A program made the position numbers and the translations under genes. A model generated the notes under the pieces. It saw nothing but the letters and a program-made list of their open reading frames with translations. It had not been told where the DNA came from and did no database searches. DNA of 48,454 nt, from assembly GCF_029946185.1 (NCBI RefSeq), contig NZ_JAQSEA010000108.1, positions 2,516 through 50,969 of the forward strand, written 5' to 3'. This DNA comes from Prosthecobacter sp. (GTDB lineage Bacteria; Verrucomicrobiota; Verrucomicrobiia; Verrucomicrobiales; Verrucomicrobiaceae). Below, piece after piece: positions 45,703 through 48,454 of the stretch; positions within the stretch are counted from its first letter, which is position 1; each line of letters begins with the position of its first letter.

Positions 45703-46812
45703 ATGCCTTCCTCAAAAGACCTCGGCCAGCTCCTCCTCATGGGCGTCCCCGGCGCCGAACTCACTCCTGAAACAGCGGCCCGTCTCAAAAAACTCCAGCC
45801 CGGCGGCTTCATTTTATTCGGCCGCAACATCCAGACCCCTGAGCAGGTCCGCAAACTCATCGATGACCTGCGCGACATCTCAGATGCCGAGCCGTTCATC
45901 ACGATTGATCAGGAAGGCGGTCGCGTCTCGCGTCTCCGCCTCATCGGCGAAGAACCACCGAATGCTCAGTCGCTGCGTGACAAGGGAGATCCCGCACTGA
46001 TCAAACGCCATGGCAAAATCACCGGCCAGCTTTTGCGACTGTTCGGTTTCAATCTCGATCTCTGCCCGGTGCTGGACATCTCGTATGATGATGCCGCAGA
46101 CAATTCTCTCAAAGGCCGCACCTATGGTCGCGATCCACAGCAGGTGATCGACAATGCGGGCGTCTTTAATCGTGCGATGCGAGCAGAGGGCATACTGAGC
46201 TGTGGCAAACACTTCCCCGGCTACGGCCCGGCAGAGTGTGATCCGCATGAGTTCCTGCCAGTCATCACCAAAAGCCGCGAAGAAATGGAACGCAGCGAAC
46301 TGCTGCCGTACTCCGCCCTGCTGCCGGAACTCGACAGCGTCATGACCTGTCACAGCAACTACACTGCTTACGATCCGGATCGTGGCCGCTGGCCGGCAAG
46401 CCTGAGCCACAACATCGTGACGAAGCTGCTGCGCCATCAATACGCCTTCGACGGACTCGCCATGACCGACGATCTCGACATGGGAGCGATCTTGAATGAA
46501 GTCACCTTTGAGCAGGCCATCCAGGAAGCGGTGCGCGCGGGCAATGATCTCGTCATGATTTGCCACCGCGTCGAAATGGTGGAGCTCGCCCGCCAGCACC
46601 TCGAAGGCGTCGAAGCCCCCGCGCTGCATGATGCTCTGATGCGGATCGAGAAAACCAAGAAGCGCCTTGTGCAGCCCGATCAGTTCAATCTTGACCGTTT
46701 CGCCGCGATCAACCGTGACATCTGGCAGCTTCGCGTCGATACCCTCGGCGAGGAAGCCGCTAAAGATCTCAGCGTCGAAGACGGCAAACGCTCCCCTGTG
46801 GAGCTGTATTGA
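45703..46812 (+). CDS. glycoside hydrolase family 3 beta-N-acetylhexosaminidase (NagZ-like)
   Basis: A 369-residue GH3 enzyme resembling NagZ, which removes N-acetylglucosamine from muropeptides during cell-wall recycling. Visible are FILFGRNIQTPEQVRKLI, ITIDQEGGRVSRL, LCPVLDI, the signature KHFPGYGPAECDPHEFLP (canonical KHFPGHG...DSH) and the nucleophile region MTDDLDMGAI. The His of the Asp-His acid/base dyad is kept, but Tyr replaces the first His and Pro the Ser. No signal peptide, so cytoplasmic as in NagZ. An extra C-terminal part of about 40 residues is present. Confidence 0.87.
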   Translation: MPSSKDLGQLLLMGVPGAELTPETAARLKKLQPGGFILFGRNIQTPEQVRKLIDDLRDISDAEPFITIDQEGGRVSRLRLIGEEPPNAQSLRDKGDPALIKRHGKITGQLLRLFGFNLDLCPVLDISYDDAADNSLKGRTYGRDPQQVIDNAGVFNRAMRAEGILSCGKHFPGYGPAECDPHEFLPVITKSREEMERSELLPYSALLPELDSVMTCHSNYTAYDPDRGRWPASLSHNIVTKLLRHQYAFDGLAMTDDLDMGAILNEVTFEQAIQEAVRAGNDLVMICHRVEMVELARQHLEGVEAPALHDALMRIEKTKKRLVQPDQFNLDRFAAINRDIWQLRVDTLGEEAAKDLSVEDGKRSPVELY

Positions 46813-46883: not shown

Positions 46884-47654
46884 CTACAAACTCTTGTCGA
46901 TCAGCAGCGCAGCAGAACGACGCGGATTCGGATGGTAGCCATTCATGGTGGCACGGATGCGCTTGGCACGATCCACACAGGCCTCCGCCTTTTGGAAATC
47001 TCCTGAAGCCTTGTACACCGCCCCCAGGTTGATAAAAGTCTGCGACAGATCCGCCGGATCCATCTGCCCATCGTTCAGGTTCTGCCGGATGGCGAGCGCC
47101 CGCTCATGCATGGCCTGGGCACGGTCCACATCCATGCAGCTATAATAAAGCACACCGAGATTGTTATAAACGGAAGCCACGCGTGAACTTTGTTCGCCAT
47201 CGATTCGCTGAAAGGCTTCAAGTGCGTTGCAGTAATAGCCCTCGGCTTTTTCAAACTTCCGCAGCTGTTTGAAAATCATGGCCAGATTGTTTTTGATCGT
47301 GGCAACCTTATCACTGTCTTCCAAGACATTGTCAGCACCGATGCTCAGCGCCATCTCATAGAACTCAGCCGCCTGGTCCATGCGCCCCCAGCGATCATAC
47401 AAATGGGCGAGAAGCGAGTAGATGCCGATCAGCAGGTCAGGGTCCTGCTTGCGCAATTCCTGCGCACGGAAGAGCGCCTCACGGTAGAGTGACTCGGCCT
47501 TGCGGAAATCCCCCTCCTGCTGCCGTAGGTCAGCTAGCACACTGATCTGCTCGACCAGCGTACCCACGCGAATCGGATCGTGGTAAGCAAGCCTCCGCGC
47601 CTCCTCGACGCTGCGGGAAGCGGTGGCTAGTTGACGTTCTAAAACAGTATCCAC
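46884..47654 (-). CDS. bklc: kinesin-light-chain-like TPR protein (Bklc candidate)
   Basis: A 256-residue protein made almost wholly of about five tetratricopeptide repeats of the kinesin light chain type (QEGDFRKAESLYREALFRA; TIKNNLAMIFKQLRKFEKAE; ASVYNNLGVLYYSCMDVDRA; TFINLGAVYKASGDFQKAEA). No signal peptide. In Prosthecobacter the btubA and btubB genes are followed by such a gene, bklc, reported to link bacterial microtubules to membranes. Here it starts 18 bp after the end of a btubB relic on the same strand, the expected operon place. The frame is intact, so it may have kept or gained a role without tubulin. The gene symbol rests on synteny plus repeat type. Confidence 0.78.
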   Translation of the reverse strand: MDTVLERQLATASRSVEEARRLAYHDPIRVGTLVEQISVLADLRQQEGDFRKAESLYREALFRAQELRKQDPDLLIGIYSLLAHLYDRWGRMDQAAEFYEMALSIGADNVLEDSDKVATIKNNLAMIFKQLRKFEKAEGYYCNALEAFQRIDGEQSSRVASVYNNLGVLYYSCMDVDRAQAMHERALAIRQNLNDGQMDPADLSQTFINLGAVYKASGDFQKAEACVDRAKRIRATMNGYHPNPRRSAALLIDKSL

Positions 47655-47672: not shown

Positions 47673-48163
47673 TCACGAGGCCGCTCGGACGAAAAGTCGG
47701 CCCAATTTCGACCCGCTGGCGTCGTTGTTCTCATACCCGTGTGTGTCGGTGTGCTTGTCGAACATGATGTCGAAATCGGTGATAAGACTCTCAAACACTG
47801 CGGCAATGCCAATGTGGTTGACCAGCGCCAGCGCGCAGGGCGATGATTTGGTTGAAGTCCATTGAGTTCGGGCTGCGATGCAGCTTCGACTTCTCAAGCG
47901 GAAGAGCGCCTCGTTGTCAAGCAACACGGCGGCACCCGCATTGTCCAGGATGCGCTGCAGAGTGATGACGGCGTTGTAGGGCTCGACCGAAGAGTCGGAA
48001 ATCAGCAGGGAGGGAACGACGGAGAACGTGAATGGCCGCTTCTCGGGTTAAGCCTCGTGCAGGCGCTTCAGAATGAGCTAAACCATGCACCACAGAGGGA
48101 GTGGATCATCGTGAACCCTTGGAGAGACTTGGTCTTTTCGACAGCCGCATCGATCCCATTCAT
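47673..48163 (-). pseudogene. btubB: decayed bacterial tubulin gene (btubB relic)
   Basis: Translated pieces match bacterial tubulin B from memory of the family. Frame 1 from 48163: MNGIDAAVEKTKSLQGF then MIHSL. Frame 2 from 48077: LILKRLHEA, a TAA stop at 48050-48048, PEKRPFTFSVVPSLLISD, VEPYNAVITLQRILDNAG and LLDNEALFRL. Frame 3 from 47895: EKSKLHRSPNSMDFNQIIAL. Back in frame 2 from 47831: LALVNHIGIAAVFESL and FDIMFDKHTDTHGYEN. The glycine-rich GTPase signature that should follow MIHS is destroyed, about 130-150 residues are missing between IIAL and LALV, and the N-terminal third is absent. Several lesions rule out a single sequencing error. It cannot make a tubulin. Confidence 0.9.
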
Positions 48164-48169
48164 GAGGGA

Positions 48170-48454
48170 TTACGGTGCTGCATCAAGTTTCGGCGGCAGA
48201 GTCGAGGCCGTGGATATGGCTGGCATCTGTCCGGTTTGGTTTTCAACCTGCCCCTGCTTCATACGGTCGATCTCCTCCTTGGACGGAACGATGGCACGGC
48301 GAATGATGATGGCATCCTTTGCTGGCTGTTTGTCAGCAGTCGCTGGCGGGAGTCGCGCAGCCACAGGCTGAGGACTGGTGAAGACAGGCGTTACCGCTGC
48401 AGCTCTCGTCTCTGAATCTATTGACTTTACAGCCTCAGGCTTTGTCACCGGTTT
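48170..48454 (-). CDS. 3' part of an unidentified gene, cut by the window edge
   Basis: An open frame of at least 94 codons that runs off the right edge and ends at a TAA at 48172-48170, 6 bp before the first recognisable tubulin codon. The product is Pro/Ala-rich and charged (IIIRRAIVPSKEEIDRMKQG near the end) with no recognised domain. A GTG at 48448 is not a trusted start because the frame continues upstream. It occupies the place where the N-terminal part of btubB would be, so it was either brought in by the deletion or is an unrelated neighbour. Reality as a gene is uncertain. Confidence 0.4.
   Translation of the reverse strand, partial: KPVTKPEAVKSIDSETRAAAVTPVFTSPQPVAARLPPATADKQPAKDAIIIRRAIVPSKEEIDRMKQGQVENQTGQMPAISTASTLPPKLDAAP

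Follow-up and report, generated by a model that had tools for sequence, protein, structure and literature searches.

A bacterial tubulin B relic adjoining an intact and constrained bklc gene in a Prosthecobacter genome

We describe the remnant of a bacterial tubulin operon in a Prosthecobacter genome (G000), which we are confident arose by operon loss: btubA was deleted, btubB decayed, and the adjoining bklc gene was spared under somewhat relaxed purifying selection. The window, that is, the whole stretch of DNA analysed, comprises 48,454 nucleotides (G000:C108:2516-50969) and runs to the contig end; the assembly from which it derives holds 6,187,319 bases in 317 contigs, with a completeness of 95.86% and a contamination of 0.54%. 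The relic by itself is a pseudogene, and the interest lies in the recurrent loss of bacterial tubulins within the genus and in the survival of a constrained partner gene. All comparisons are based on assemblies, with one genome per species and a single assembly for the species of G000, and the presence of btubB was scored across a genus sample of 48 genomes.

The original prediction, which placed a btubB relic on the minus strand, was borne out by profile, protein and nucleotide searches alike. The Pfam tubulin profile PF00091 matched at 47895-48080 (E 4.9e-7), and the BtubB protein of a relative (P0002) matched the locus in three collinear pieces (E 3.2e-24, 8.4e-13 and 7.9e-5), with zero matches in seven btub-less genomes under the same search. 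P0002 is the intact homologue from G001; it carries both tubulin Pfam domains, and its best PDB match is 2btq_B, which it matches over the full length (E 3.1e-254), identifying it with structurally characterized BtubB (PDB 2btq_B, 5o09). By blastn, the block at 48165-47837 shares 83% DNA identity with btubB of G001, and the corresponding E value of 6e-87 excludes a chance resemblance. Compared with BtubB, the locus retains homology and the place in the operon, with flanks as in relatives and btubA missing, but it has no open frame (two stops, frameshifts and three larger deletions), no start, no intact glycine loop and no BtubA partner in the assembly. Inactivating lesions relative to intact orthologues, together with lost constraint, identify it as a pseudogene.

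Aligned by blastn with the btub loci of relatives, the minus strand resolves into three collinear blocks. The final 289 bases of the window (48454-48166) are the 3′ end of a kinase-like gene, located ahead of btubA in relatives (feature bounds 48170-48454, TAA stop at 48172-48170). The following 329 bases (48165-47837) correspond to btubB starting at nucleotide 353, or codon 118 of the intact gene. At the junction between the two (48166/48165), ~2.08 kb are gone (2076 to 2080 bp, by relative compared), comprising the whole of btubA and the first 352 nucleotides of btubB. A second junction at 47837-47831 marks the loss of about 390 bp of central btubB sequence. Starting at about 47836, the terminal part of btubB, bklc and NagZ follow one another with no other large gap. 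This last portion of btubB, near its 3′ end (47715-47830, minus strand), carries a 66-bp deletion at 47725/47724 and has lost the native stop codon.

The lesions were read from a base-level alignment with G039, G012 and G001. Within the 48165-47837 block, a 13-bp deletion at about 48089/48088 shifts the frame and cuts the GGGSGSG glycine loop, a TAG stop at 48080-48078 and a TAA stop at 48050-48048 interrupt the ancestral frame (TCG and TAT in relatives, respectively), and a 1-bp deletion at 47898/47897 causes a further frameshift. The TAA stop, frameshifts near 48080 and 47897, and a junction near 47833 with a missing middle part had all been anticipated in the original prediction, and each corresponds to a real lesion. 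That prediction had also located the locus correctly, although its bounds of 47673-48163 are better given as 47715-48165, and it had overlooked the TAG stop, the 66-bp deletion, the lost stop codon, the total absence of btubA and the intact bklc gene adjoining the relic.

These features suggest a history in which the ancestor carried an operon of kinase-like gene, btubA, btubB and bklc. The ~2.08-kb deletion would have brought the 3′ end of the kinase-like gene up against mid-btubB and removed btubA, so that bacterial microtubules could no longer form. What remained of btubB would then have decayed through deletions of various sizes, stop codons and amino-acid substitutions irrespective of codon position, and the downstream bklc would have been spared, staying under somewhat relaxed purifying selection. 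In this order of events, the large deletion probably preceded the other lesions.

Searches with PF00091 and with BtubB across all 317 contigs of the 95.86% complete assembly found no intact btubA or btubB, which rejects an intact copy elsewhere in the assembly and carries out a check proposed with the original prediction. Two PF00091 matches were present in G000, namely the relic and a gene on C176 with a 567-aa open frame; the latter is probably ftsZ, because the BtubB query does not find it. This query also recovers BtubA in genomes possessing it (36-37% identity) and found no BtubA in G000. We infer that intact btubAB genes are likewise missing from the unassembled part of the genome. Were the relic instead a decayed duplicate, with intact btubAB in the unassembled part still being served by Bklc, the constraint on bklc would have a ready explanation, and both the two btub operons of G018 and the assembly completeness of 95.86% leave some room for this scenario. 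We consider it improbable, given that zero other btubA or btubB fragments occur on any of the 317 contigs, that the relic occupies the orthologous operon site, which is the sole site seen in the closest relatives, and that G013 independently has bklc without btub genes. As an observation in its own right, the two operons of G018 (btubA-btubB-bklc; L043 and L044) are both complete, diverged from each other and 220 kb apart.

It is more improbable still that an assembly or sequencing artefact, or a strain chimera, conceals an intact operon at this position. The assembly is a draft of 317 contigs, its contig end lies only 289 bases upstream of the junction, and single btub lesions occur in other drafts from the genus, one of them an N-filled gap (G015). 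Set against this, two large and three smaller deletions, two stops and 25 altered invariant residues within one short stretch form no error pattern, and the flanking bklc and NagZ genes are clean; the number and kind of the lesions led us to reject an artefact. The contig end is also accounted for: the first 724 residues of the kinase-like gene are found at C55:8-2179, reaching the end of contig C55, so that the contig break falls in the linker of this gene, outside the btub region. The name of the gene is tentative, as its PF00069 match (E 1.9e-6) lies under the curated cut-off.

We then compared gene order across the genus. The G001 locus runs from up515, which encodes 513 aa, through the kinase-like gene, btubA, btubB and bklc to NagZ. 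The 369-aa gene that we take to be NagZ (45703-46812, plus strand) is a conserved neighbour of the operon in this clade, on its downstream side. Scanning the genome contigs with a bklc alignment yielded 35 loci, to which the record of the window itself does not belong, from Prosthecobacter sp., Brevifollis gellanilyticus and one Phragmitibacter sp.; btubB adjoins bklc at 34 of them, the exception being L232 in G013 (isolate AM-lipid-02-D2_bin-0333). The kinase-like gene precedes btubA at 22/35 loci, which suggests that it is part of the btub system. At L255 and L260, a 346-aa gene (presumably aldo/keto reductase-like), the kinase-like gene, btubA, btubB and bklc stand in one row, and the survival of this ancestral cluster order in two genomes speaks for inheritance followed by repeated losses rather than for late insertions at scattered sites. 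Complete btub operons were also observed outside named Prosthecobacter, at L253 and L259 (Brevifollis gellanilyticus NBRC 108608 and a Phragmitibacter sp. MAG).

In this genus, btub genes have been suggested to move by transfer, and PMC3232192 describes the operon in different places in three species, which it interprets in this way. A btub operon fragment gained by transfer and never functional in the lineage nevertheless has a close to negligible probability here, as gene order and chromosomal place are those of relatives with the full operon, and the background omega of the relic sequence in relatives is 0.006. Shared gene order likewise identifies the events in G000, G013 and G003 as losses, not gains. 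The orthologous operon site, together with the nesting of G000 among tubulin-bearing relatives, supports the earlier suggestion that this lineage formerly had microtubule proteins.

We counted the changes assigned to the G000 branch at first, second and third codon positions. In the relic these were distributed across all three positions, at 16/12/12 of 134/144/96 sites, where the first few bases of the 47715-47830 piece sit at the junction and could add one or two counts. The corresponding values were 3/0/11 of 173/173/103 sites for NagZ and 9/2/13 of 246/249/154 sites for bklc, which lies between the relic and NagZ. Branch codon models were fitted with our own script, using F3x4 frequencies, in place of a published program and with G015 and G040 excluded. 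For the relic (12 taxa, 139 relic codons), omega was 0.27 on the G000 branch vs 0.006 elsewhere (2dlnL 78.7), and the range of values with 2dlnL under 3.84 had its lower limit between 0.12 and 0.16 and its upper limit between 0.45 and 0.60. NagZ exhibited no shift (0.022 vs 0.025). As omega = 1 was rejected for the relic branch as a whole (2dlnL 14.2), we read this branch as functional first and neutral later. If selection was normal before the loss and neutral thereafter, the post-loss share would amount to roughly a quarter of the G000 branch. The loss had been predicted to be recent, and the small neutral-looking portion of the lineage's own branch supports this.

The gene directly downstream of the relic, bklc (46884-47654, minus strand), is an intact open frame of 256 codons for a bacterial kinesin light chain, a TPR protein, and TPR repeats were found in its product. 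Its counterpart of known structure is Bklc/BtubC (PDB 5o01, 5o09), with P0001 matching 5o01_A over 256 residues (E 2.2e-151). In the excerpted account of PMC5372463, Bklc of other species binds Btub filaments as well as lipid vesicles, tethering filaments to membranes; the protein is described there as a filament partner as well as a tether, whereas here it persists without filaments. A whole bklc beside a broken btubB hints at another job for Bklc.

The relic serves as an internal neutral clock against which this persistence can be gauged. At sites fixed in the other sequences (30 or more per site, to a maximum of 35 for bklc and 34 for btubB), 25/109 invariant residues were altered in the relic, a few of them adjoining indels where the alignment is uncertain, vs 1/117 in Bklc (Fisher p 4.6e-8). 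Changes at codon positions 1 and 2 affected 28/278 sites in the relic and 11/495 in bklc (Fisher 3.7e-6). A neutral bklc with 0.10 changes per site would have been expected to acquire ~2.6 stops, but it has none, and omega = 1 was rejected for bklc on the G000 branch (2dlnL 26.7). We conclude that bklc has been under selection for most of the time since the death of btubB.

The same branch provides evidence of relaxation, with a bklc omega of 0.125 vs 0.023 (p 6.9e-5), and because this is an increase of about five-fold, part of the argument could be mere lag. Taken to its full extent, this would mean that bklc is idle and headed for decay, as in G003, where a bklc relic stands in the place of the operon of relatives; the five private residues of G000 Bklc, exceeding the 0 to 3 found in each of 11 other sequences checked, point in the same direction as the raised omega. 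This alternative deserves serious weight, yet appears the less probable one, since over the same timespan the relic and bklc diverged so sharply in altered invariant residues and in changes at positions 1 and 2, and since neither the missing stops nor the rejection of omega = 1 fits an idle gene. On our main reading, Bklc would work without tubulin. More specifically, Bklc may be more than a microtubule accessory, having outlived the tubulins under selection at least twice, in G000 and independently in G013, with a tubulin-independent function in the cell, perhaps at the membrane; we regard this proposal as evenly poised.

In G013, up515 is followed by bklc after 172 bp (L081:8247-8420), with no trace of the kinase-like gene, btubA or btubB. 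A 19-base element that G001 carries ~133 bp ahead of the kinase-like gene, and that recurs with at most three differences in 16/18 sequences scanned, in G013 stands 25 bp ahead of bklc. The loss in G013 may have joined bklc to sequence that in intact operons precedes the kinase-like gene, a proposal that we hold jointly with the tubulin-independent reading of Bklc and with the same balanced confidence. The omega of G013 bklc was 0.013, with no difference from background (2dlnL 2.3) and with omega = 1 rejected (2dlnL 69.0); because the loss in G013 is undated, this constraint is weaker evidence than that from G000. In G003, a relic of the bklc 3′ end with a frameshift and stops (L082:8870-9105) lies between a 346-aa and a 204-aa gene, which are the flanks of btubA-btubB-bklc in G048, G050 and G051. 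Judged by this arrangement, G003 represents an independent loss with a footprint.

Across the genus, btubB was present in 34/48 genomes (16 among G001-G023 and 18/24 among G037-G060) and missing from 14, nine of which are at least 90% complete; in G006 (74%), G022 (52%), G045 (81%), G053 (88%) and G057 (78%), low completeness may mimic absence. A bklc orthologue (at least 64% identity) was found in 36/48 genomes, namely the 34 with btubB together with G000 and G013. At this search level the other btub-less genomes contained only TPR paralogues and no bklc orthologue, G003 excepted. A terminal PF00091 match on C120 hinted at a second btub fragment in G021, but this sequence has no match to BtubA or BtubB and was dismissed.

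An rpoB tree was built from 39 genomes, 10 of them without btub. It excludes G056, whose row is only 52% identical to G000 and forms a very long branch, and a further eight of the 48 genomes that had no rpoB match. Presence and absence require nine changes on this tree, eight of them forced by well-supported branches (six in an earlier tree including G056), and these counts do not tell gain from loss. At least eight forced gains or losses imply that tubulins come and go repeatedly in the genus. A single clade of all btub-less rows was rejected (p-AU 0.0006), and presence and absence exhibited no clustering on the tree, with 325 and 332 of 500 label shuffles as low. G000 itself is nested with the btub-bearing G039, G012 and G001 (support 100/99). 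The original prediction was right in its reading but understated the case, with neither the survival of bklc nor the recurrent losses in the genus having been seen.

A 2023 survey, as excerpted (PMC9871819), describes bacterial tubulins as restricted to Prosthecobacter. A tubulin-free congener of G000 is also on record: PCR and Western blot reportedly showed btubA and btubB to be absent from Prosthecobacter fluviatilis (PMC3232192). It differs from G000 in that the excerpted account mentions no relic and no fate of bklc. Searches of titles and abstracts in the open-licence literature turned up neither a btub relic nor a bklc gene lacking its btub partners. With recurrent losses, dated relics and tubulin-keeping sister species, microtubule function becomes a matter of comparison between close relatives, and Bklc, described only as a filament partner, is seen to be still selected after the filaments are gone.

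Several minor observations concern the other genomes. In G012 (isolate Tobar12.5m-G46), among the closest relatives of G000, a 5-bp tandem duplication (CTGAG) at about 5150 of L039 shifts the btubA frame, which is either decay in progress or an error. In G060 (isolate RE-9nov16-393), a TAC to TAG change places an in-frame stop at codon 107 of an otherwise complete btubB (L209, minus strand), which is counted among the 34. An apparent btubA lesion in G015 proved to be the N-filled gap, and we did not treat it as decay. In the subset of genomes with a completeness of 90% or more, the median size is 4.9 Mb for the nine without btubB vs 6.9 Mb for the 27 with btubB (p 3e-4, ignoring kinship and using rounded sizes); neither G000 nor G013 is small.
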